Origin: Elusimicrobiota bacterium | GTDB lineage: Bacteria > Elusimicrobiota > Elusimicrobia > Elusimicrobiales > Elusimicrobiaceae | Direction: 5' to 3' | NCBI GenBank assembly: GCA_029008615.1 | Contig: JAQXJI010000006.1 | Coordinates: 167,159-231,158, forward strand | Length of the DNA stretch: 64,000 nt | Shown: in pieces, positions 8,742 to 64,000 of the stretch | Layout: the number at the start of each line of letters is the position of its first letter | How positions within the stretch are numbered: the stretch's first letter is position 1 | The notes under the pieces: generated by a model | What the model was told of the DNA's origin: nothing | Databases searched by the model: none | What the model saw: the letters and a program-made list of their open reading frames with translations, nothing else | Made by a program: the position numbers and the translations under genes

Positions 8742-8835
8742 ATATAAAACGCTCCTCCGGCAGAGCGGTTTAAGAGTCCGCCCCCGGTATAAAATATTTA
8801 AGCCCGTCCCGCTAAAGCAAGGCGGCAAAAACAAG

Positions 8836-9181
8836 TGGAGGCGGCGGGATTCGCACCCGCGTCCAAACATCCATACGGCACGGTTACTACAGGTTTAGCT
8901 TCGGCTTAAAAACGCGCCCGCATACCCGAAGCCGTTGCTTGCGCGCTTGTTTATTTTATCTTAGGAAGGGTTAGGCTAAACGAACCTTCCCTTCAGCATC
9001 CGGCTGATTTGACCGTTACGCTCCGCCCGCCGGCGAAGAAGAGCAAACGGGTTTAGGCGGTAGCCCAAACGTTGTTGTTGTAGTTGTTGCCAACTAATTG
9101 TTGTGGCCCTATTTTAACCGGCCTGGCCAACCGGTACCTGCAACCGAACTTCAGAGATATCTGTCGAAACTGGTCGCCCCC
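8836..9181 (-). ncRNA. ssrA: tmRNA; CCA not encoded; predicted tag (A)GNNYNNNVWATA
   Basis: 5' GGGGGCGACCAGTTTCGACAG, 3' TTCGAA-type T arm GTGCGAATCCCGCCGCCTCCA, acceptor stem GGGGGCG/CGCCUCC, tag ORF at 9053-9091 ending GCC TAA. Confidence 0.93.
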
Positions 9182-38710: not shown

Positions 38711-38876
38711 ACTCGTTAAGTTAGATTCTCATAGTTAGTAATTGGGCAAATTTAAGTTTTTTCTTCATTCGGATACCTTGCCGCCTTCGGCGGCATAGCT
38801 GCAAGTATACCTCGAACAGAATAAAACTTAAATTTCCTCCAAATCTAAAAAACCACGCAAGTTAAGCCCTCTCACG
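38711..38876. repeat. Structured intergenic palindrome, copy A1
   Basis: 13-bp perfect arms AAATTTAAGTTTT (38748-38760)/AAAACTTAAATTT (38823-38835) around a GCCGCC-TTC-GGCGGC core and GGATAC...TATACC. Confidence 0.75.
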
Positions 38877-38881
38877 TTTTT

Positions 38882-39060
38882 AAATCGGTCTAAGTTACGC
38901 GCTCACGGCTATCACTTCGACGCTTTTGGGCGGCTTTTAATTTTTTCTTCGCTTAAATACCGCGGCGGCGAAGCCGCCATCGTTCTAGGTATTCTGCGTT
39001 TAGAATAAAATTAAAATCCGCTCCAAAATCAACAAACCACGCTTTTGCATATTCGCACCG
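38882..39060. repeat. Structured intergenic palindrome, copy A2
   Basis: AAATCGGTCTAAGTTACG head; arms TTTTAATTTT (38935-38944)/AAAATTAAAA (39007-39016); GGCGGC gaa GCCGCC core. Confidence 0.75.
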
Positions 39061-39211
39061 ATAAAAAACACGCCGCTTTTACGCTCGTACCTTTTCAACC
39101 GAAACGCTAATTTTTAAATTACCTCTTTATTTTATTTTTTCCTTTTTACACTACTTTTATACATTCTCTCTATATACTCGGTCGTAAAATGCTTCCACAA
39201 CTTTTTCATTA

Positions 39212-39276
39212 ATGTAGGTCGGGCTTTGCCCGACGGAAAACTCCTTATTAACGTCAGGCGTAGCCTGACCTACATT
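39212..39276. repeat. REPIN-like double hairpin
   Basis: AATGTAGGTCGGGCtttGCCCGAC ... GTCAGGCgtaGCCTGACCTACATT; outer ends mutually inverted. Confidence 0.7.
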
Positions 39277-43984: not shown

Positions 43985-44153
43985 ACTCGGTCTAAATTGC
44001 ATTTTCATTACTAGCAAGCTTTAATATTTAGGCAAATTTTGATTTTTGCTTCAGTCGGATACGCGGGGCTCCGCCCACTCTAGGTATACCTTCCTCATTA
44101 AAAAACAAAATTTTCTCTAAATCTTAAAGCTCACGTTTGTTACATAATCGCAC
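43985..44153. repeat. Structured intergenic palindrome, copy B
   Basis: CTCGGTCTAAATTGC head; ATTTAGGCAAATTTTG ... CAAAATTTTCTCTAAAT; GGATAC...GTATACC. Confidence 0.7.
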
Positions 44154-47531: not shown

Positions 47532-47716
47532 TAAATCGGTCTATGTTACATACTCTTTACTAGCAATTTTCCGTTTTTGAGCGTATTTTGATTTTTTTAC
47601 CGCTTCGGATACCGCGCCGCCCAAGGGCGGCATCGCACTTAGTATACCTTGCGTCAAAGAAAATCAAAATACATCTCAAAACCAAAAAATCACGTTGCTT
47701 ACGCGCTCACATTGCT
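47532..47716. repeat. Structured intergenic palindrome, copy C
   Basis: AAATCGGTCTATGTTACA head; 13-bp perfect arms GTATTTTGATTTT (47583-47595)/AAAATCAAAATAC (47660-47672). Confidence 0.75.
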
Positions 47717-47778
47717 AAAAATCACGCTGCTTACATTCTCTCACGTTAAAACCCACGATAACGCTCATTTAACGTAGG

Positions 47779-47806
47779 TCGGGTTTTACCCGACTTTCCT
47801 TTTACG
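47779..47806. repeat. Single REP-like hairpin
   Basis: ACGTAGGTCGGGTtttACCCGAC. Confidence 0.6.
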
Positions 47807-47807
47807 C

Positions 47808-50384
47808 TTATTCATAAGTCAAAATTCCGCAGAGGCAAAAGTTTTTGGCTCCCGCGTTTTTTATTATTATTTCCGGCGCGTTTGAAAGCAGTTTCTCTTC
47901 CCTGTTTAGTGCCCTCATGCGGCTTGCCGACGGCATGGAAGTTTCCAGCTCCCCGCAGTAAAAAGAGGAGTCCTTTTCGGCCGTGGCCTCGCTTAAAGCG
48001 CGCATATTGTTTTCGTCCTCGCCGTAATAAAAATCCTGAGTGTTAAACACCTGAAACACGTTCTTAACCGCATTAACTCCGTCCTTTTCTTGTGCGCCGG
48101 GGTATTTGGGCACCAAAACGGCTTTTACGTCTATATCAACCCCGGCGAAAGCTTTTAAAGCCGCGTCGAAAGGTATTTTAAGGGCCGATATATCCGCTTT
48201 TGCGCCGGGCGCGGCCGATATTTTAAAGGAATATTTGCCGTAAACGCCCGTTAAAGTTCTGCCCGCCGGCGGGGTAAACATTTTTTGCGGCAGAGTAAGT
48301 TCTTTTACGTATTTTTCTTCGCCGTCGGGCGTAACCGTCAAAGGGGAATAAAACTCCAGCGGCGGGCGGGAATTTGTTTTGTCGTAAACGTCGCGCATTT
48401 CTTCAAAGGCAAGCCACCTTCCGCCGTAAACGCCGGCCAGTCCGCTTTCGTCGCCGTCTTTGTCAAAGTTCATAACGGCGTCGCCCAAAGCCAAGCCCAG
48501 AGTATCGTTTAAAAACGCGCCTTTCGTTCCCTCGTTGATATCCAAAAATAAAATTCTGTGCGCGCCGCTTTGCATTCTTATCGAAAGCGCGTTATACGGG
48601 TGTTCTAGGGGGAAGACGTCACTTATTTTCTCCTTAAACTGATACTTGGCCAGTTTCAGCAAATCGTTTTTAAGATAAGCGTTTGTTTGGAAGTTGTACT
48701 GGCTCAAATATAAATTTTGTCTGTCTTTGCTTACGTAAATAATATTTCCGTCCGCGTCGGCGGGCAAAACCGCGCTTGCGGCGGCCGTGGCTATAAACGG
48801 CGCGGTGATATTGGTGTTTGTAATAACGCCGTCGTCCGGGGCGTAAAGACGCACAAGGCCGTTGTCCGTACCGGCGACCAAAGCCGCGCCTATGCGTTTA
48901 ATCCAGTTAATGCGGGCGAACTCGCTTTGTATAATCATTTTAATAGAGCATTCCGCGTCAACGATACCGTAATTAAAATCGCTGAAGTTAAGGTAATCGT
49001 CGCTTTGGCTCAGGCAGATGCAGGGCCCCTCGGCGGAGTTGTAGGAAAACGCCAGCCTCCCGTCGATAAAATCCACGCAGTTGGGGTAAGTTACGCCGTC
49101 AACCAGCCCAAGCCGCCATTTATAGGTTTTTATTTTGTCGGGCATATAATCAATTACCAAAGCTTTCACTTTGTAGGGGGAAACATACTCGGTAATCAGC
49201 GCGCGGCCAAAACCGCTGTGCAGGTATTTAAACATCAGTCTGCCGTCGGATACCGTACCCTCGGTGTGTTTCGGCTGGCTGTAACCGGCCTTGCCCGCTC
49301 CGCTTGTTACTTTGTAATAATTTTCTCCGCTTTTAACCACGTCGTTAAGCGCATAGCCCTCGCTGTCCATGCTCCAGCCTTTTGTGGCGGCGTCAAAATA
49401 TTTAAGCTGTATATACTGCCCCTGCATATCCTCGGTAAAAAAGGGCAGGCCCTGCCCGCCGGTCTGCGTAAAGGCCGAGTTCATCGTAAAAACGGTTTCT
49501 TCCAGCGTTTGGGCGTTAAGCACTTTAATTGTGCAGCTGATAGCCTTGCCGGAATAATTTACCGTATTCGAAGCGGCCGTAACGGTCTGCGCGCTTACGT
49601 TTCCCTGCGCCTGCAAATCGGTGTTTGCGCGTAAAAGGTAGCTTACGGCCATTTCGGCGTTTACGTTTAAATCGGGCAGGTTTTCAAGCGCGGGGCCCTC
49701 GTTTTCGCCAATGGTCCAAACAATGCTTTTTACGCTTTCGCCCGAAGCCAGCTGATAAGGCTGCAAAGCCAAATCGGCGGCGGGGTTTTCCGCGGCGGAA
49801 GTCAAAGTTATATTCCCGCTCACGCCGGAAGCTTCAATAAGCCGGCCTTTATTGGTGTTAAATTCTTTCCACGGCCCGTTATTAAAGGCGACGGCGTTAT
49901 AAGTCCAAGTTTCCCGCGCATAATATTTTACTTGGGCGAAGGGGTAATCCTCGTGGGCCAAATAAAGCACGTTTGCGCTTTGCTTGCTTCTAAGGCGTTT
50001 TATTCCTTTTAAGTCAAACAAATCTTTTGCCAGGTAAGGCGCGCTTATTTTTAAAGGCGAACCGTCTTCAAGCCGGATAAAATCAAAGCTTTCCAAATCA
50101 AAGGGGGCAAAGCCTCCGCCGTAAAACACAAGCAGGTATTTTATATTTCTTGTGCTGTTAAAGCTGAACAGCGCAAAAGGCCCGCTTACGCCAAGCTCGG
50201 TTTGCAGATCGGCCAAAAAGCGTTTGCCCGCGCGGTTAAAAAGCGCGCCGCTTTCGGTGGCGTAAACGTTTTTGCCTTCGCGCAGGTGGTTTTGCAAAGC
50301 CTCGTAATCTGCGCGGCTTTCCACGGTCGGGTCAATTTCCCCGTAAATAAAATTAAACTTTTGGGAAATCAGCTTTCTTCTCAT
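47808..50384 (-). CDS. Phage tail nozzle/stabilisation-like protein
   Basis: 858 aa; MRRKLISQKFNFIYGEIDPTVESRADYEALQNHLREGKNVYATESGALFNRAGKRFLAD N-terminus resembles podoviral tail nozzle proteins. Confidence 0.6.
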   Translation of the reverse strand: MRRKLISQKFNFIYGEIDPTVESRADYEALQNHLREGKNVYATESGALFNRAGKRFLADLQTELGVSGPFALFSFNSTRNIKYLLVFYGGGFAPFDLESFDFIRLEDGSPLKISAPYLAKDLFDLKGIKRLRSKQSANVLYLAHEDYPFAQVKYYARETWTYNAVAFNNGPWKEFNTNKGRLIEASGVSGNITLTSAAENPAADLALQPYQLASGESVKSIVWTIGENEGPALENLPDLNVNAEMAVSYLLRANTDLQAQGNVSAQTVTAASNTVNYSGKAISCTIKVLNAQTLEETVFTMNSAFTQTGGQGLPFFTEDMQGQYIQLKYFDAATKGWSMDSEGYALNDVVKSGENYYKVTSGAGKAGYSQPKHTEGTVSDGRLMFKYLHSGFGRALITEYVSPYKVKALVIDYMPDKIKTYKWRLGLVDGVTYPNCVDFIDGRLAFSYNSAEGPCICLSQSDDYLNFSDFNYGIVDAECSIKMIIQSEFARINWIKRIGAALVAGTDNGLVRLYAPDDGVITNTNITAPFIATAAASAVLPADADGNIIYVSKDRQNLYLSQYNFQTNAYLKNDLLKLAKYQFKEKISDVFPLEHPYNALSIRMQSGAHRILFLDINEGTKGAFLNDTLGLALGDAVMNFDKDGDESGLAGVYGGRWLAFEEMRDVYDKTNSRPPLEFYSPLTVTPDGEEKYVKELTLPQKMFTPPAGRTLTGVYGKYSFKISAAPGAKADISALKIPFDAALKAFAGVDIDVKAVLVPKYPGAQEKDGVNAVKNVFQVFNTQDFYYGEDENNMRALSEATAEKDSSFYCGELETSMPSASRMRALNREEKLLSNAPEIIIKNAGAKNFCLCGILTYE

Positions 50385-53300
50385 TAATTATTCCTCCGTT
50401 GTTTTTTGCGGCGTTTTTTGGTTTTCTTCTTTTTCTCCCCGGTCATCTGCCCGGCGCGGTATTCGGTGTAGCCCGCCGCCCTTAAAAGGCCTTTTGCGGT
50501 TTTGCCGTCAAAAACGTCTTTAACTCCGCCGGCGGCGTTAAGCGCTGTCTGCGCCGGCAGGCCGGTATATTTAAGCAAAGCCGCCAAAGAGTTTATGCTG
50601 TCCGTTAAGCTCATTTCGCCAAGCAGCTCTTCCAGCCCGCCGGCGTCGTTGTAAGCTTTTACGGCTTTATTGACGTCGCGCTGTATGTCTTCAAAAGCGG
50701 GCATGGCCACGCTTGAGGGCGCGGGCAGTTTTTGGTTTTTGCTCTTGGCGTAAACGGCGTCCAAAAGGTATTTAACGCCGGCTTCGGCAAAAGCGTTTAC
50801 GGAAGCCAGCCCGGTAATTGGGGAAGCCAAAACGTCAAAAACGCCTTTTTGGGCTTTTTCCTCGCCGTCGTCGTCCTTGCCGGGGTAAAGCCAGGCAAAG
50901 CCCAAAAGCGTATAAATCATGGGGTTTAAAGCGGCGTATAAAAGCCACGTCTTGCCGAAATCCGCGGCGGAAATTTCCCCGTTTTTATACTGTATGTAGC
51001 TTGTCGCCAATTTGCCGAAGTACTGCTTGCTTTGGTTCCTGAACACGGTATAAATGCGCGCGGCGTAATTATCGGCATTGGCCTGATACTCGCCCAGCAA
51101 AGCTTTTTGGGAGCTTTGCAAAGTGCTTTCGCCCTGTTCTTCCACTTTGGCGCGGGCCTCCTGCGGGGAAAGTTTTAAATCCTCCGTCAAATATTTATAA
51201 TAGGGATACCCGCCGTAAACAAAGCTTGCCTTATCGCCCCAGCGTATATTAAACATCAGCGCGTTTGTAAGGTTGTTCCAGCGGGTTTGAAGCAAATTCA
51301 AATCGCGGGCGGCCATGGCGCGCTGCAAACTTTCGTTTATCGAACCTTGGGCAAAGCGCACTTCTATATGCGGCACGTTTTTAAGCATAAAATCATAAGT
51401 GGCTTTAGGCTTGGCCATACCTTCCAAAAAGTATTTGGCCCAAATATGAAAAGGCATTTTTTCGGCAAAGCTTATCCCGGTGGCAAACTGCTTTGCGCCG
51501 ACGGTGGCCTTTAAAGCCATCGCGCTTTTAACCCACCCGTTGAAGATAAACTCCATAACCGGGCTTGAACCCGCGCTCTTCTTTATTTGCGGGCCCTGCA
51601 AATCTATCAGGCGCAGAAGCTTGTCGTAAAGTTTTTTGCCGTCTTCGCGCCCGGCCGCGCTTTCAAAAGCTCTTTCTATCTTTTCGCTTTTAAATACGCC
51701 CTTTATCAGATTAAAGGTCAAAGCCTCATTTATATACTCGGCGGCGCGGTTGGTGTGGTTTTGCACTATTTCAAGAATGCTTGTCGGCTTCATGGCGACG
51801 CGGAAGCTTTTAACTCTTTTTTTAATAAAGCTCGGGTTCGCGCTCGCGTTTATGTATTGTTTAATATAATCCGTGTCGCCGCCTATATCCATGCGCCTGG
51901 CCACGCTGGGCAGATAGTTAGGGTCTTGCGGCAGGGAAAATCCGTGCATTTCCCTGAAAACGGCGTTTTCCCTCGCCCATTGTGCGGCCGTAAACTGTTG
52001 CAGTACGTCGGCAAGGCGTTTTTCCGCCGGGGTCAAAAGGTTAAACATTTGCTCCAGCTGGTTCTGCCCGTATTGCCTTAAAAGCCTGCCCCTTAAGCCG
52101 TAATCAACAATGCTTCCGTCTTCGCGCGTTTCGGGCTGGGTGTTTTTATACCATTCGTAAACGCTCATTATTTCCAGTTTGTTAAGGTCGTCTTGGTCTA
52201 TATCCTGCTCGGCAAGCCATTTGCCGTCTTGCAAAATTCTGGCCTGCTCCGCGCCGTCGGCCTCGTTAAGGGCGCGCATATAGTTTTCCGCCGTAAATAC
52301 GGTTTTTTGCAGTTCCGCTATTTTGTTTAAAACCGCGCCGTTGCTTTTAAGATCCAAAACCGTGCGGAAGATATCGTTTAACTGCCGGCCCTTTTCATAT
52401 TTGTAAAGGGCGGTGCCTCTTTGGCCTTGTAAAGTGTCCAAAGCGTCGGCGAGGTTCGTTTTGGTTTTTACCAGTTCGCCGTTTTCGTTTACTTCTTCAT
52501 GCTCAATAACGCCGAAAGCGTTTAAAAGGAACTGCTTATAATTGGTATCGGGCAGGTTTAAAAACCACTTTGCGCCAAAGGGCAGTTTTCTGTTTCTTAA
52601 AGCTTGGTTTAAAGCTTCGCGCAGGTATTCGCGGCTTAGCTGTTTTCTAAGTTTTTCCCTTAACTTGTTGGCGCGGCCGGCTTTTAACAGGGCGGAAACG
52701 TCCTCAAAAAGTTTTTGGCTGTCGGCGGGGTTGTTCTCCTTGCCGTTAACCAAAAATTCCAAAACGCCGTTTAAAAGGGCTTCTTCCACGGGGTAAATAT
52801 CGCCGTTTTGTACGGCGGCCATGGCCTTATCCTGCCGCGCGTTTAAAATAACCTGCAGTTCTTCCGGGCTGTAAGGCTTTGTACGCGTGTTGAAAGTATT
52901 TGATTTTTCAGCTATAATATCATTGTCCCCGTTTAGCAACGGTTTAAAAGCCGTGTCTCTGGCGGGGATAACTTTTTGCCCTGCGTAATTTTTATTATAT
53001 TTGGCTATTTTGCGCTTGACAAAATCTCTCAAATCTCCTAAATTATCTATATGCGGAAGATGGCCGAAGTTCGCTTCGGAGGGACCTTCCGCATTTGAAG
53101 GCTGTTGTTGGCCAGTTTCCATATTGGGGCTGGAGTTACCGACAGCCTTCTTTTTTTCTTCCGTTTGCAAATTGTTTTTCTCAAGCGTAAGATCGGGCTT
53201 TTTTAAACCCCAGTATTCCCGCGCCTTTTGCAAAAAGTCAAAAGCCCTTTGGCTCAGTTTGGCTTTTTTGACGTTGCCGCTTTTCTCAAAAGCTTTGCGT

Positions 53301-56300
53301 TTAAGTTCCGTGTCTATCTTGCGCCAAATATAGCGGTTGTAATTTTCCTTTTGGGTTTTCTTCGCCCAAGCCATAAGCCCGTTAATCTGCTGGTTTAAAG
53401 ATTTTTTAAAATGGCTCACGGTCCCGGCGGTATGCGCTATCATGCGGTTTACGTCCGCGGGGGATAAATGCTCCTCTCCGCTTAAAGCTTTTTGCAAAAC
53501 GGCGGTAAGGCGGGGGGTAAAGTTCTCTTTTAAAAAAGCCTTGGCGCGGTTTGCGGCGGCTTTTTCTTCCTCGGTCAAAGCGGCGCGGTAGCCAAGCTTT
53601 GCGCGGCTTTCTTCTTCCAAAACGGCTTGGGCTTGGCGCGTTTTTTCTTCCGCGTTTTGCATTAAGGCGTTTATCTCTTTTAAAACTCCGGCCTTTTTTG
53701 CGCCCCAGTCCGTTGCGGGCGCGTCCAGCTTGCGCCTTTCGGCTTTGCCCTCTTCGGTCTTGGCGTATTCGGCTTCAAGCTTTTCAAGCAGTATCCCGGC
53801 CGCGTCTAAAATATCCTTGGCTTCTTTGGCCTCTTTAAGTTCTTTAAGCAGGGCCTCTTTATTTTCAATTTCGCGCTTGTTAATTTCGCTTATAACGGCT
53901 TTTTTAACGGCGCGCGCCCGTTGGTTGACTTCCCGCTCCTTTTCGGTTATACTTTTATTATCAGACGCAAGAGCAGAAAGGACAGCTGCCCCTTGAGGTT
54001 CACTCCTCTCGGTTATGAGGAATTGTCCGTCCTCGCGTCTGGTAAATCTTTTATTATCAGACGCAAGAGCAGAAAGGTGAGCTGCCCCTTGAGGTTCACT
54101 CCTCTCGGTTATGAGGAATTCACCGCCCTCGCGTCTGGTATTTTTTTTGTAAAGTTCCACTCTAGGCCTGTCTATTTTTAAAAAGCTTACCACCTCAAAA
54201 TTATCTTTATTTTCAGCCATTTCCAATACGGCGCTTTGGCCTTTTTCGTTTTCCCGCAGGAAAGTAAAATAATTCGGTTTGGTTTTAGGTTTTACCTGCA
54301 AAATGGCCGTCGCGCCGTAAAGGGCTTTTGCCAATATTTCGTTATATTCTTCCGTCGGTATTTCCGGGTGGCGCTTTTTTTCTTTCTCGATAATATTCTT
54401 TTTAAGCACCACGGGCTTGCTCTTTTTGTTTAAAAGCTTTAAATCGGCGGTGTTTAAAGGCGGCAGAATGCAGTCCTTTGAGGGGTTTTTATAATTTTCC
54501 GCGTCCGGCATTTCGCTTTCGGTAAAAGCTTTAAGCTTTTCTTCAAACTCCGCGCGCGCGGCGGCTTTGGCTTTGTGCAAGTCCTCCTGGCGTTTGTCGG
54601 CGGTATTTTTCCACGCCTCGGCCTCTTTGCGCGCTTTTTCTATTTTAGGGTTTAAAGCGTCTTCGGCTTCTTCCCGCGCGGCCTCCTCCAGCTCCTCAAT
54701 TTGGGCGGCCACAAAATCTATGTCCTTTGCGCTTACGGGCCTGTAACCCTCAAGCCTTAAGCCTTTTATTATATCTTTGACGCGGCGGTACTCTTCCATC
54801 TTCCCGCCCAAAGCGTCTTCCGCGGTTTTGGCCGCTTCCATGTAAGCTTCAAACTGCTCCACGGCCGGCAAATCTTCCAAGCGGTAAACGTCTTCCCCGT
54901 TTAATGCGCGCTCTATCATTTCAGCGGCTTCCCGGTTAAGGCGGTTTAAATCTTCATAAGTGTCAATCTCGCCCGCCAAAAACCCCCAGTCAATCAAACG
55001 CCGCGCCAAATCGTCGCCTATACCGCCTTTGCGGTTTGGTATTCTTGCGTTTTTGTAAGCTTCCGCGTCCACCCTGCCCGCGCCGGCGTAATTCGCGCCG
55101 TATTTCCTTAAATAAGTCCTCAGCGTTGCTTTGGGCAAAGGCGGCGCGCCCATGTCCAAAACGGAAAGATACTCTTCAATATCCCGCAAAGTAAGGCCCT
55201 CAACGTCCGTCTTGCCCTCTTCGCGCAGCTGTTTTATGGCCTTGCGCGTCTTCTTGGTTTTAACTTCGTCTTGGTAAAGTTTTAAATGCTCCTCAACATC
55301 CCGCCCGGAAAGTTCAAACATCCTGTCGTAAACGGCGCGGCCCGCTTCGCTCATTTCCACAAGCGCGCCGTTGTAAATATCCATAAACCATTGGCGTATT
55401 TTTTCAAAAACGCTTTTTAAAGCCGGGGCGGGGGCTTTGCCTTCCATAAGGTACGTTTCAAGGCCCTGTGCAAGCTTTTCCTGCTGTGCGCGCGTATAAA
55501 CGTAACGCCCCGCTTTAACCTGCGGTTTGCCAAGCCACTCGTCCAAATCTTTTTTAGTTTCTTTAAATTCGTCTTCGGCGTAAATATCCTGTGCGGTGTA
55601 AAGCCACAAATGGCCCAGTTCGTGCAAAAGAGTGCTCTTGTCGCCGGTCTGCATTATCTTTACAAGCGCATAATAAACGTTTCCTTTTTTGCTCAAATCT
55701 ATACTGCCGCGCTTACCCTGCCCGTACCGCTTGACAACGTCTTCCTTGGTTGGTATATTATTAAAGAAGCCGTCGGCTTTGTTTCCCTTGGGCGATTGTA
55801 GCTCTTGCGGCCTTACAAATTCGGCGGCTCTCTTTTCGTCCAAATATAGCAAATTTCCGTTTTCAATATTATTTTTTACAAAAGCTGTAAAATTATTGCG
55901 GCCATAAACGCTTGGAATAATATTTATCCCCTTATTTGCAGGCTTTAATATTACCAACGCTTGCCGTTTGCTTTCGTCTTTTGCGTCTACCACGGCCACC
56001 AAATTGCCCGGAACGGTTGCGGATTTAAACACCATTATAGGGTTGTAGACCAGATTCGGCAATCTCCGCATATCACCCATTTTCATATTGTGTTTGTCTG
56101 AAACCGCTTTTCTCAAAACCGTTACAGGTAAATTTAAAGAACCTTTTGGCAGACCCATATCCAAATATATTTGCGGAGTACTTCCCACTTTTATTAGCTG
56201 GCCGCTCTTGAGTTCGCCCTCTTCGGCTTTTTTTAAGTCTTCCTCATATTTTCTTCTGTCTTCCGCGGAAGGCGTAAAAATATCTTCCGCTTCTTCTTGG

Positions 56301-58900
56301 TTAAAAGAGGTCTTTTCTTCCTGCGGGATGTAACTGTTGAAATCCTGCTCTTGGCTCAGTTTCCTGTTTAAAGCGTTTTCATATTTTGCAAGCCTTGCTT
56401 TGTCTTTTGCCCCGTTATAGGCGAAATCCTCCCATTTTGCATATCCCGTTTTAACGGCCCCGCTGCTTTCCTTTCCGTCCAAAGTCCATTCGTTGGAAGA
56501 TACTTTTCCCCAGTGGTCTGCCTGTCTAAAAACCCCGTAATCCTCATACCAGTATTTGCTTGAGCTTGCAGACACAAAATCCGGGGCTCTGCTTGGAGCC
56601 TGAGCCGTTTTAAAATCGCCTGTTGTTTTTCTGTAGAAGTTATCTTTATTGTAGGTTCTGCTTTCTCTGGCGTTTATCCTTTCTTTAAATCCGTTTGTAA
56701 TATTTATAATTTCACTTGCCGGTTTTTGTTCGATATTCTTTTCAAATTCACTGTTGACAATATCAACAATATCCGATAAACTATTAATTAGACCGGGAGA
56801 CACGGCACTTGCTTTTAGTGTACGCATCCCGGCGAGTTTTTTTATAGGCGCGTTGAGCTTCGCTTTTTCCAAAAATATTTTCCCGCTTGCGGCAATTTCC
56901 ATTAAAGTGTTTAAATCGCCTTTTGCGGTCTTAATACTCAAAACAACTCTTATTCCGTTATAAGCCCCGCTGCCTTGCAGTATTTCATAATTTTGGATAT
57001 CGGGGTGTTTTAAACTATTTTCTATTAATTCCAAGTCCTCCGGGGAAATTTTTTTATTGTCGCCGCTTATAATTCTTTCCTGCGGGACGGTTATATCCTC
57101 TTCACCATTTATAACGTAATATTGTTTGTTGCGTTTTTTGCTGGTTTCGGCGTATTGTTTAAATTCCGCAAGGCTGTTTGCTCTGCTCTTATACATCGCG
57201 GCGGCCTGCGCGTAGCTTTCCTGCGCGGCGGGGGGCAAATCCTCCGCTTGGCGTTCTATTTTAAAGTTTAAAAAGCTTTCGGCGGTTTTTGGCAGAACTT
57301 TGTTTTTCTTGGCTATGTTATCTACGATATTGGCCAAAATGCGCCCGGCGGCCTGCGCTTCTTCCTCTTTCGCGCCGTTTTTCCTGAGGGCTTCCTCATA
57401 CCCGGCGGAAATATCAATAAGCTGTTTGGTGCGGTCCTTTTGTTCGGCAATGGCGGCCTCAAGGTTTTGGGATACTTTGTTTTTGTCAAAATCTGGGTAA
57501 GTCATGGGGCTCATTTCTTTAATCAAAGGGCCTGTTAAATCGCGGACGAAGTCCTCGCTTAAAATCTCCCCGGCGGTTTGCTCGGCCAAAGCGCGGGCTT
57601 GTTCCTCGGGAAAACCGGCTTTTTGCAAATCGCTTTGCACTTGGCCCATGGTTTTAAGCACGCTTGCGCCGTTAAAAGCGGCGCCGAAGCCGCCGCCCAT
57701 AACCGCGCCCCAAACAAAGCTCATAATGTTTTTTTGCAGGATATCGCCCAGCTTCTCATTTTGCACGCCGTAAGCGTTTTTAATAAGATCCGTGCCGGTA
57801 TCTTGGATATATTCCTGCGCGCCCTCCGTAAACGCGCCGGCGGCCGTAACCGCGGCAAAGCGCGCGGGCAGGTTTTTAGGCGCTTTGGCCATAATTCTGC
57901 CTGCGGCGTTGGCTATAAGATTATTGGCTTTAATCGCGCTTAAATAAGTTTTAAGGCCTATAAGCTCCGTCGCGCTTATCCAGGCCGCGTCGGTAAAGCC
58001 GGCGGCTTTGGCCTTTTGGTAGGAAAGCCCGGCCTTTAAGCCCTCGCTCGTAGTATCGCCAAGCTGCATGGCCCCAAAAAACGCCGCCCCGGCCGAGGGA
58101 TTCTTTGCAAGCACGGTTACGCCTATCGCGCCCAAAAGGCTCATGGCGGCCTGCGTGCCCTCGTAAACAAGGGCCTCGTCGGGCCTTGCGCCGGCTTTAA
58201 GGTTCGTCCCCGTTTTTTCAATTACGCTTTGGGCGAAGTCCTCAAACTGTTTAAGGGCAAAAGCCGTTTCTTTGTTTCTTTTTTCAGCGTCCAGCTTAAG
58301 CCCGTTTTCCCAAATAGCTTTGGCTTTTTCGGGCATAAATTCGTAATCTTCCGGCGCGGGTTTTGCAAAAGCTTCTATGGCCGTGTCGCCTATTGTTACA
58401 AGCCCCTCAAAAACATTTTTTAAAGCGTTCATGCTCCAGTTCGCGCCGGCTTTAAGGGCGGCGGCGGTTCTTTGGACTTCCCCGTTTAAGGCCGTTTCTT
58501 TAACTTCCTTAGGCCCGGCCAAGAGTTTTACTGAGGGGAATTTAAAAACTTCCGCCATACCGCTGTTGATAATATCCCCGGTTTTGACGTCAAGCTTTTT
58601 CAGGCCGAAGAACCTTTCTTTGGGCACTTCTAAAGTCTGCGTCAAAAGGCCGTATTCGGCTTCGTCGGGGTCGGCCAAAGCGGTGGTAAATGGTATCTTC
58701 CTTTTAACGTCCCAAATGCTTACCGGCTTTTCTTCCGCCGGCAGCAAATCCAAGGGGCGGTTATTGTTGCCGTAAGCGCGCACTTTATCAAGGATTTTGC
58801 CGTTTTCGTCCCGGCGCACGCGGAAAATTTCTCCGTTTTCCTGTTCGGTTTTGTAGCTTTTAAGATAATCGTTTAAAGGTTTTAAGAAATCATTTTCCAT
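50384..58900 (-). CDS. Giant polyvalent/internal virion protein (2838 aa)
   Basis: Single uninterrupted ORF; HELGHLW metallopeptidase motif, MuF-C-like region, PBECR-like region, long helical segments, C-terminal hydrophobic region. Confidence 0.75.
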   Translation of the reverse strand: MENDFLKPLNDYLKSYKTEQENGEIFRVRRDENGKILDKVRAYGNNNRPLDLLPAEEKPVSIWDVKRKIPFTTALADPDEAEYGLLTQTLEVPKERFFGLKKLDVKTGDIINSGMAEVFKFPSVKLLAGPKEVKETALNGEVQRTAAALKAGANWSMNALKNVFEGLVTIGDTAIEAFAKPAPEDYEFMPEKAKAIWENGLKLDAEKRNKETAFALKQFEDFAQSVIEKTGTNLKAGARPDEALVYEGTQAAMSLLGAIGVTVLAKNPSAGAAFFGAMQLGDTTSEGLKAGLSYQKAKAAGFTDAAWISATELIGLKTYLSAIKANNLIANAAGRIMAKAPKNLPARFAAVTAAGAFTEGAQEYIQDTGTDLIKNAYGVQNEKLGDILQKNIMSFVWGAVMGGGFGAAFNGASVLKTMGQVQSDLQKAGFPEEQARALAEQTAGEILSEDFVRDLTGPLIKEMSPMTYPDFDKNKVSQNLEAAIAEQKDRTKQLIDISAGYEEALRKNGAKEEEAQAAGRILANIVDNIAKKNKVLPKTAESFLNFKIERQAEDLPPAAQESYAQAAAMYKSRANSLAEFKQYAETSKKRNKQYYVINGEEDITVPQERIISGDNKKISPEDLELIENSLKHPDIQNYEILQGSGAYNGIRVVLSIKTAKGDLNTLMEIAASGKIFLEKAKLNAPIKKLAGMRTLKASAVSPGLINSLSDIVDIVNSEFEKNIEQKPASEIINITNGFKERINARESRTYNKDNFYRKTTGDFKTAQAPSRAPDFVSASSSKYWYEDYGVFRQADHWGKVSSNEWTLDGKESSGAVKTGYAKWEDFAYNGAKDKARLAKYENALNRKLSQEQDFNSYIPQEEKTSFNQEEAEDIFTPSAEDRRKYEEDLKKAEEGELKSGQLIKVGSTPQIYLDMGLPKGSLNLPVTVLRKAVSDKHNMKMGDMRRLPNLVYNPIMVFKSATVPGNLVAVVDAKDESKRQALVILKPANKGINIIPSVYGRNNFTAFVKNNIENGNLLYLDEKRAAEFVRPQELQSPKGNKADGFFNNIPTKEDVVKRYGQGKRGSIDLSKKGNVYYALVKIMQTGDKSTLLHELGHLWLYTAQDIYAEDEFKETKKDLDEWLGKPQVKAGRYVYTRAQQEKLAQGLETYLMEGKAPAPALKSVFEKIRQWFMDIYNGALVEMSEAGRAVYDRMFELSGRDVEEHLKLYQDEVKTKKTRKAIKQLREEGKTDVEGLTLRDIEEYLSVLDMGAPPLPKATLRTYLRKYGANYAGAGRVDAEAYKNARIPNRKGGIGDDLARRLIDWGFLAGEIDTYEDLNRLNREAAEMIERALNGEDVYRLEDLPAVEQFEAYMEAAKTAEDALGGKMEEYRRVKDIIKGLRLEGYRPVSAKDIDFVAAQIEELEEAAREEAEDALNPKIEKARKEAEAWKNTADKRQEDLHKAKAAARAEFEEKLKAFTESEMPDAENYKNPSKDCILPPLNTADLKLLNKKSKPVVLKKNIIEKEKKRHPEIPTEEYNEILAKALYGATAILQVKPKTKPNYFTFLRENEKGQSAVLEMAENKDNFEVVSFLKIDRPRVELYKKNTRREGGEFLITERSEPQGAAHLSALASDNKRFTRREDGQFLITERSEPQGAAVLSALASDNKSITEKEREVNQRARAVKKAVISEINKREIENKEALLKELKEAKEAKDILDAAGILLEKLEAEYAKTEEGKAERRKLDAPATDWGAKKAGVLKEINALMQNAEEKTRQAQAVLEEESRAKLGYRAALTEEEKAAANRAKAFLKENFTPRLTAVLQKALSGEEHLSPADVNRMIAHTAGTVSHFKKSLNQQINGLMAWAKKTQKENYNRYIWRKIDTELKRKAFEKSGNVKKAKLSQRAFDFLQKAREYWGLKKPDLTLEKNNLQTEEKKKAVGNSSPNMETGQQQPSNAEGPSEANFGHLPHIDNLGDLRDFVKRKIAKYNKNYAGQKVIPARDTAFKPLLNGDNDIIAEKSNTFNTRTKPYSPEELQVILNARQDKAMAAVQNGDIYPVEEALLNGVLEFLVNGKENNPADSQKLFEDVSALLKAGRANKLREKLRKQLSREYLREALNQALRNRKLPFGAKWFLNLPDTNYKQFLLNAFGVIEHEEVNENGELVKTKTNLADALDTLQGQRGTALYKYEKGRQLNDIFRTVLDLKSNGAVLNKIAELQKTVFTAENYMRALNEADGAEQARILQDGKWLAEQDIDQDDLNKLEIMSVYEWYKNTQPETREDGSIVDYGLRGRLLRQYGQNQLEQMFNLLTPAEKRLADVLQQFTAAQWARENAVFREMHGFSLPQDPNYLPSVARRMDIGGDTDYIKQYINASANPSFIKKRVKSFRVAMKPTSILEIVQNHTNRAAEYINEALTFNLIKGVFKSEKIERAFESAAGREDGKKLYDKLLRLIDLQGPQIKKSAGSSPVMEFIFNGWVKSAMALKATVGAKQFATGISFAEKMPFHIWAKYFLEGMAKPKATYDFMLKNVPHIEVRFAQGSINESLQRAMAARDLNLLQTRWNNLTNALMFNIRWGDKASFVYGGYPYYKYLTEDLKLSPQEARAKVEEQGESTLQSSQKALLGEYQANADNYAARIYTVFRNQSKQYFGKLATSYIQYKNGEISAADFGKTWLLYAALNPMIYTLLGFAWLYPGKDDDGEEKAQKGVFDVLASPITGLASVNAFAEAGVKYLLDAVYAKSKNQKLPAPSSVAMPAFEDIQRDVNKAVKAYNDAGGLEELLGEMSLTDSINSLAALLKYTGLPAQTALNAAGGVKDVFDGKTAKGLLRAAGYTEYRAGQMTGEKKKKTKKRRKKQRRNN
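53952..54139. repeat. Two tandem 96-bp units, each with an 80-bp palindrome, in frame in the giant ORF
   Basis: CAGACGC...GCGTCTG at 53962-54041 and 54058-54137; compensatory GGAC/GTCC versus GGTG/CACC. Confidence 0.9.
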
Positions 58901-60907: not shown

Positions 60908-61090
60908 TAAATCGGTCTAAGTTGCGTTTTCTCTGCTAACACTTTGCCGCTTTTGGGCGGCTTTAAATTTTTTCCTCAGTCGGGTACTGCGGCAACTTCG
61001 TTGCCATCACTCTTAGTACACCTTCTTCGTCAAAAATTGAAATCCGCTCAAAAATCAATAAACCACGCTGCTTTCAAGCTCGCACTGTTT
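60908..61090. repeat. Structured intergenic palindrome, copy D
   Basis: AAATCGGTCTAAGTTGCG head; TTTTGGGCGGCTTTAAATTTTT ... AAAAATTGAAATCCGCTCAAAAA. Confidence 0.75.
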
Positions 61091-61144
61091 TTACTCGGTC
61101 TAAGTTCCGTCCTCGCGTTTTTGTACTCATGTTAAGTCCGTATC

Positions 61145-61208
61145 AATGTAGGTCGGGCTTCGCCCGACGGAAAACTCCTTTTTCAACATCCTGACTTTAG
61201 CCTGAACA
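61145..61208. repeat. REPIN-like element, second half degenerate
   Basis: AATGTAGGTCGGGCttcGCCCGACGGAAAACTCCTT shared with 39212; second hairpin decayed. Confidence 0.65.
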
Positions 61209-61301
61209 TTATTATTTTTTCACGTCTTCTATACAGAGCCGGCACTAAAATGCTTCCACAACTTCCAGCCTGCTAACCGGGATACCCCGGCGGCTCACGA
61301 G

Positions 61302-63741: not shown

Positions 63742-63930
63742 TAAATCGGTCTAAGTTACGTCGTTACTGCTAGCAAGCTTTCATATTTAGGCAATTTTTA
63801 ATTTTTTCTTCGCTTAAATACCGCGGCGGCTTTGCCGCCATCGTTCTCGGTATTCTACGCTTAGAAGAAAATTAAAACTTGCTCTAAATCTTAAAGCTCA
63901 CGCTGGTTTCATACTCACACTGCTAAAATT
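63742..63930. repeat. Structured intergenic palindrome, copy E, followed by a solo 3' arm
   Basis: AAATCGGTCTAAGTTACG head; ATTTAGGCAATTTTTAATTTTTTCTTC ... GAAGAAAATTAAAACTTGCTCTAAAT; GGCGGC ttt GCCGCC core. Confidence 0.75.
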
Positions 63931-64000
63931 GAAATCCGCTCCAAAATCAACAAACCACGCCGGTTACGTCCTATCACGCTAAAGCTCAAAACTAAAAAAA

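Follow-up and report, generated by a model that had tools for sequence, protein, structure and literature searches.

The six hairpins found in a prophage-bearing stretch of an Elusimicrobiaceae genome belong to a family of structured repeats with about 70 copies across the chromosome. We consider it probable that these are mobile palindromes, a new family of intergenic repeats that fold into hairpins and are non-autonomous, hosted here by a gut bacterium of the Elusimicrobiaceae, and not phage elements. No description of this family was found in the open literature, most subscription papers being outside the scope of that search. The window analysed here is the whole stretch of 64,000 nucleotides, which lies in contig 6 (C6) of a 1.66 Mb draft genome (MAG) that is 99.6% complete and assembled in 42 contigs. 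The RecG protein of the host places it in gut-type Elusimicrobiaceae, having 82% identity to RecG of uncultured Elusimicrobiales MAGs and further close matches labelled Elusimicrobiaceae. The first-pass annotation of the window had seen a structured palindrome there, possibly a non-autonomous mobile one, restricted to the prophage. Its observation was largely right and is partly confirmed, whereas its prophage framing was wrong. Its interpretation is partly supported, since a structured and possibly mobile palindrome agrees with the covariation, with the scatter of copies over the genome and in the prophage, and with sites that are empty in close relatives.

Structure of the hairpins

Related imperfect hairpins of ~144–158 nt are present on the minus strand at all six sites reported earlier. 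The minus strand folds better than the plus strand at every copy of the window, and we therefore write the hairpins on the minus strand, i.e., as the reverse complement of the sequence given in the first-pass annotation. Written in this way, they read GCGTG, 5' arm, GC-rich tip, 3' arm, and then GCTAGCCGTGAG.ACGYAACTTAGACCGAG. The long imperfect stem, the GC-rich tip, the GATAC/GTATACC inner pair and the CACGC tail described earlier were all seen. The head AAATCGGTCTAAGTTACG, described as common to the copies, was matched with three mismatches or fewer in only four of the six, and also in a fragment without a hairpin at 61092.

Copy 1 (38713–38858, minus strand) has the AAATTTAAGTTTT arm and a shortened lower 3' stem; it was delimited by its fold and by a match of our covariance model R1 (C6:205871-206016, 118.8 bits). 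It stands in tandem with copy 2 (38887–39042, minus strand; C6:206045-206200, 157.9 bits). The composite carrying both includes a leader motif, GTGGAAGCATTTTACGACCG (39179–39198, minus strand), and an adjoining REPIN-like inverted REP doublet recognised from its sequence, GTAGGTCGGG...CCTGACCTAC (39214–39273, unstranded). The remaining copies are all on the minus strand as well. Copy 3 (43989–44136; C6:211147-211294, 122.5 bits) has a shortened tip, and copy 4 (47538–47695; C6:214696-214853, 148.6 bits) has two flanking repeat units of ~31 nt ahead of it in minus-strand direction. The composite of copy 5 (60914–61068; C6:228072-228226, 149.6 bits) contains a single REP-like palindrome, GTCGGGCGAAGCCCGACCTAC (61148–61168, unstranded), and a degenerate leader, GTGGAAGCATTTTAGTGCCG (61240–61259, minus strand; repeat D15). 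Copy 6 (63748–63903; C6:230906-231061, 167.6 bits) has the top score of the genome, and a remnant of a further hairpin with only the 5' arm lies beside it (63925–63978, minus strand; nhmmer match, repeat D4). Palindromes of the REP/REPIN-like type GTAGGTCRGG adjoin the window hairpins at 39214–39273, 47768–47800 and 61148–61168. The prophage also has a minus-strand reading frame of 2838 aa (50384–58900) with a near-identical 96-bp tandem pair at 53945–54136.

The arms had been reported to change while staying paired, and this was borne out by the covariation among 33 copies, which was well above that of shuffled and slid controls. The RNAalifold structure of these copies has 42 pairs in five helices. 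Paired cells made up 94.5% of the total, vs 79.1% after shuffling and at most 52% when the partner was slid. Double changes occurred in 26 of the 42 pairs (at most 12 when slid) and in 220 cells (70.7±7.4 when shuffled). The changes are grouped in blocks: a small number of arm types and of inner types appear in varying combinations among the copies. Since such blocks are inherited together, the 220 cells do not represent as many independent events. The conserved internal motifs are GGTATAC/GTATCC and TTTTGAG/CCAAAA.

At those pairs of the structure that are mainly Watson-Crick, G-U outnumbers A-C on the folding strand (50 vs 23 cells), a count biased by the derivation of the structure on the same strand. 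With DNA parameters, 76 of 80 hairpins from the host and its relatives are stabler on the folding strand than on the complementary one, by ~3.5 kcal/mol. No covariance model of Rfam reached its gathering score at a hairpin, so that no Rfam family matches. The only Rfam hit of the window was a tmRNA (8835–9181, minus strand), whose predicted tag, GNNYNNNVWATA, ends in ATA instead of the usual LAA/ALAA.

Genomic placement and composite organisation

A search with a single copy as query gave 32 matches on many contigs. Model R1, built from 33 copies (alignment A2), identified about 70 full copies on 28 contigs of the host once low-scoring echoes on the opposite strand were set aside. They occupy gaps between genes almost without exception, and often occur in tandem. 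Half of them (35 of 70) are at most 1.2 kb from a contig end; hence the assembly breaks at the hairpins and ~70 is a minimum. The prophage was called from PHROGs matches (integrase, tail, major head protein). The earlier view that the family is confined to it holds in so far as there are no other copies between positions 1 and 38700 of the window, but was rejected given the copies on 28 contigs.

Many hairpins are part of larger composites. A 20-nt leader, GTGGAANNATTTTNNGACCG, has 24 copies in the host, whereas the control, the pattern reversed, has none. Wherever we examined it, the leader was found about 110–300 bp upstream of an array's first hairpin and oriented like it. It usually stands behind a REP or REPIN-like unit. 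Three modules alternate in the position before it, of which one is an inverted sub-type of the hairpin. This sub-type (GGCTTGATTTGCTTTAGATTTGAGCCTGATTTTAG...) faces away from the array upstream of some leader composites (C42:20724-20884 in locus L093, C23:294-454 and C5:29362-29522). Degenerate direct units of about 31–39 nt flank and separate the hairpins. The REP tag GTAGGTCRGG occurs 38 times in 828 kb of host stretches (two in the control), and the tags adjoin the composites. The leader was absent from 17 congeners and the leader composite is therefore particular to the species of the host. At several loci, hairpins are fused with, or interrupted by, another long palindromic element (GGTTAARCAAAGCCTTATAATACGCCTTGCG...), which in three cases occupies an identical position in the 3' arm. 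Its sites are L027:1-240, L010:1001-1150, L004 and L012 (at the hairpins C8:40783 and C2:75262), C24:25128 and C24:48377.

Orientation in the host and hairpins of relatives

Positive GC skew marks the leading strand of replication. The sign of the skew predicts the strand of the hairpins on 28 of 28 contigs (P = 7e-9) and for 66 of the 67 copies, the inverted sub-type being left out. The rule holds for the prophage copies too. Because the orientation of the copies matches the sign of the skew, the elements have a polarity relative to replication. Because positive skew marks the leading strand, the better-folding strand is the leading-strand template, the direction of replication being taken from the skew of a draft genome. 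We rejected gene orientation as the cause of this agreement, since the rule holds on six contigs in which most genes have the opposite direction (C2, C6, C8, C20, C29 and C35). Once coding bias is removed, 25 of 26 contigs agree when all codon positions are used, and 19 of 26 with the noisy signal of third positions alone. Prophage copies are sense to the phage genes, while arrays in the chromosome are mostly antisense to the genes beside them (37 to 8 by our tally). The sole hairpin against the skew rule (C42:25666-25822, in locus L093) overlaps a reading frame of 163 aa; it may result from an inversion or be an old copy.

We searched for the hairpins in relatives of the host. Of 59 related genomes, 21 had matches to model R1, with 1–37 copies each, and all 21 are from the family of the host; the model matched nothing in the 24 genomes that represent a different family of the order, nor in several nearly complete congeners. 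The hairpins thus extend to other genera of Elusimicrobiaceae, and copy numbers among the relatives range from zero to tens per genome. Their hairpins are other sub-types with the same layout: a TTTTGAG/CCAAAA lower stem with an unpaired base, an AT-rich arm, a GC-rich tip, and an inner stem with either GGTATAC/GTATCC or GAGTACC/GGTACTC. A second model, R2, made from three congeners, also detected multi-copy hairpins in a second family of Elusimicrobiota (f15, 11 of the genomes drawn), which retain GAGGTATACC...GGTATCCGAAG or TTTTTGAGGAAATTTT...AAAATTTACCAAAAA. The sequence motifs common to the families look more conserved than expected for a purely selfish repeat, and we counted this against the mobile-repeat reading. 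The replication bias is weak in congeners (32:17, or 36:13 by another estimate), where the hairpins are mostly sense to the flanking genes (22:4). This argues that the orientation rule is not universal for the family.

Gap-by-gap comparison of three close congeners (G002, G011 and G015) revealed presence/absence polymorphism. The hairpin at C22:14877 of G011 is missing from the matching gap of G002, as are two hairpins of C20 of G015, in each case between flanks that are about 85–95% identical. No clean target-site duplication was visible at two empty sites. Modules are also exchanged in place. A single gap holds three different sub-types in the three genomes (G011 C16, G002 C11 and G015 C3), and the hairpins at G011 C18:1263 and G015 C7:56762 are almost the same in arms and flank but differ in the tip, which is paired all the same. 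Exchange at shared gaps probably reflects recombination of one copy with another; that copies were inserted there independently seems less likely. Genes between neighbouring hairpins of relatives were considered as possible cargo and rejected: in two cases they were ordinary genes, SMC-like and polyketide-synthase-like as judged by eye from their translations.

Possible mode of spread and relation to known repeats

How might such repeats spread? If they are mobile palindromes, one strand would fold into a long bulged hairpin whose internal motifs might be recognised by some enzyme or DNA-processing reaction acting in trans. Copies would spread in the chromosome and into prophages, with tandem amplification, and would exchange arm and tip modules by recombination while the paired halves stay complementary. 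Their orientation would be set by the direction of replication, the stabler hairpin strand being the leading-strand template. Such a fixed orientation suggests that insertion, or else survival, is tied to the single-stranded DNA of the replication fork. The strict polarity in the host favours a contribution from insertion; either fork-coupled insertion or differential survival could produce the pattern. If single-stranded DNA is targeted, orientation should follow replication, as it does on every one of the 28 contigs of the host and weakly in relatives. A broader proposal can only be tentative: the family, common to at least two families of Elusimicrobiota, may be moved or kept by a replication-coupled single-strand mechanism without a HUH Y1 transposase, with recurrent exchange of paired modules, by which the structure would be passed on and the sequence replaced.

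No autonomous partner was found among the three enzyme families tested, which weighs against mobile repeats, as do the lack of a clean target-site duplication and the weak polarity with mostly sense orientation in relatives. Matches to PF01797 (Y1/RAYT) were lacking in the host, where the draft assembly breaks at repeats so that absence is no proof. Among the relatives, also draft assemblies, PF01797 was absent from G002, G003, G011, G015 and G020, which have 17–33 copies, and present in G004, G010, G014, G016 and G023, with no relation to copy number. The RAYT or TnpA_REP transposase that the first-pass annotation had suggested looking for thus gained no support. Reverse transcriptases (PF00078) were rejected because they are absent from the host and scattered in relatives regardless of copy number, and tyrosine recombinases (PF00589) because they are present in all 25 genomes tested, with or without hairpins.

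These data bear on several other explanations. It is very improbable that the hairpins are REPINs or BIMEs mobilised by a RAYT: the abundant REP tags do adjoin the composites, but a hairpin of 156 nt is neither a REP of 20–40 nt nor an inverted REP doublet, and the distribution of PF01797 gives this idea no help. We give even less credit to a phage-borne motif, whether for packaging or recombination, as also proposed earlier, or for regulation. The prophage segment has four arrays in 24 kb vs 0.7 expected (P about 0.006), which is a modest excess. Yet ~64 of the 70 copies are outside the window, the family is chromosome-wide in the host and runs through the bacterial lineage, with hairpins in genomes of two families, and two exact family patterns had no match in 2.9 million viral contigs. 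Dissemination by phages is, by the same search, not supported, exact patterns being a weak test.

A structured RNA, or arrays of them, transcribed from the minus strand of the window with the leader as promoter region, and acting for example in protein binding, processing or 3'-UTR stabilisation, is unlikely, though it accounts for several observations. These are the excess of G-U over A-C, the constant orientation of the leader upstream of the arrays, the position of relatives' hairpins sense to co-directional flanking genes, and the motifs kept across families. However, the excess of G-U fits selection on the folding of single-stranded DNA as well, and a free-standing RNA gene would have no reason to be head-on to replication in 66 of 67 cases. 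Also against an RNA are the lack of an Rfam match, of any copy in several nearly complete congeners, and of the leader in the 17 congeners. We find somewhat more doubtful still that polarity arose by survivorship alone. Passive palindromic repeats, otherwise spread by recombination, would then land in both orientations and be deleted or selected against when the stabler strand is on the lagging-strand template. This agrees with the stabler strand being on the leading-strand template, and the same polarity of sedentary integron arrays has been explained by reduced excision (PMC5371416). But the hairpins of relatives have an equal difference in stability (46 of 47) with weak polarity, and ~3.5 kcal/mol seems small to yield 66 of 67.

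The mobile palindromes that we favour are repeats of the ERIC, BOX or REPIN kind without being members of those families. What distinguishes them is a deeply conserved structure, the exchange of modules and an orientation bound to replication. Like MITEs, they are multi-copy, short, non-coding and polymorphic in presence, and like other hairpin-forming interspersed repeats they are dispersed between genes with a conserved secondary structure. They resemble the enterobacterial repeats ERIC, RU-1 and RU-2 (127 and 168 bp), which are imperfect intergenic palindromes of similar length, multi-copy, non-autonomous and able to fold as RNA or DNA (PMC2759123, PMC2229807). The arrays, module exchange, species-specific leader composite and replication-bound orientation of our hairpins set them apart, and no sequence relation is expected. 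BOX elements of Streptococcus pneumoniae are also modular composites; their internal modules vary in number, RNA stem-loops are predicted for them and they occur together with other repeats (PMC3049150), but our hairpins lack boxA, boxB and boxC, and the entire hairpin is the repeated module, with parts swapped. They share with REP, BIME and REPIN sequences associated with RAYT the palindromic nature, strand-specific folding, composites and intergenic location (PMC3733652, PMC3116915). Unlike these, they are far longer (~144–158 nt vs 20–40 nt) and lack the GTAG/CGTC tag; the GTAG-type REPs are separate, adjoining elements, and the host has no detected RAYT.

Integron attC sites also conserve structure over sequence; they are bulged single-strand hairpins whose orientation is related to replication, the leading-strand template being the strand that folds (PMC5371416). 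In contrast to attC, the base of our hairpins lacks the inverted R'/R'' boxes (RYYYAAC/GTTRRRY), there are no cassette genes, and copies are dispersed instead of in one array. We rejected identity with attC, as the CGTGAG..AAC motifs of the flanks are, by inspection, direct and not inverted. The ends of IS200/IS605 elements (IS608) are likewise single-strand hairpins, and these elements insert into the lagging-strand template, so that their orientation recapitulates replication (PMC5371812). Unlike them, our hairpins enclose no transposase gene and PF01797 is absent from the host.

The family explains where assemblies of the host genome break, and cautions against taking copies within a prophage for features of the phage. 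Many bacteria have small palindromic repeats, but the way of moving is understood for only a minority of them. Here, strict polarity in one genome, losses in near relatives, empty sites amid highly identical flanks, exchange of paired modules in place, and the lack of a detected Y1 transposase in the host provide an unusually clear handle. It would allow a test of the model linking such repeats to single-stranded DNA and replication outside the RAYT setting.
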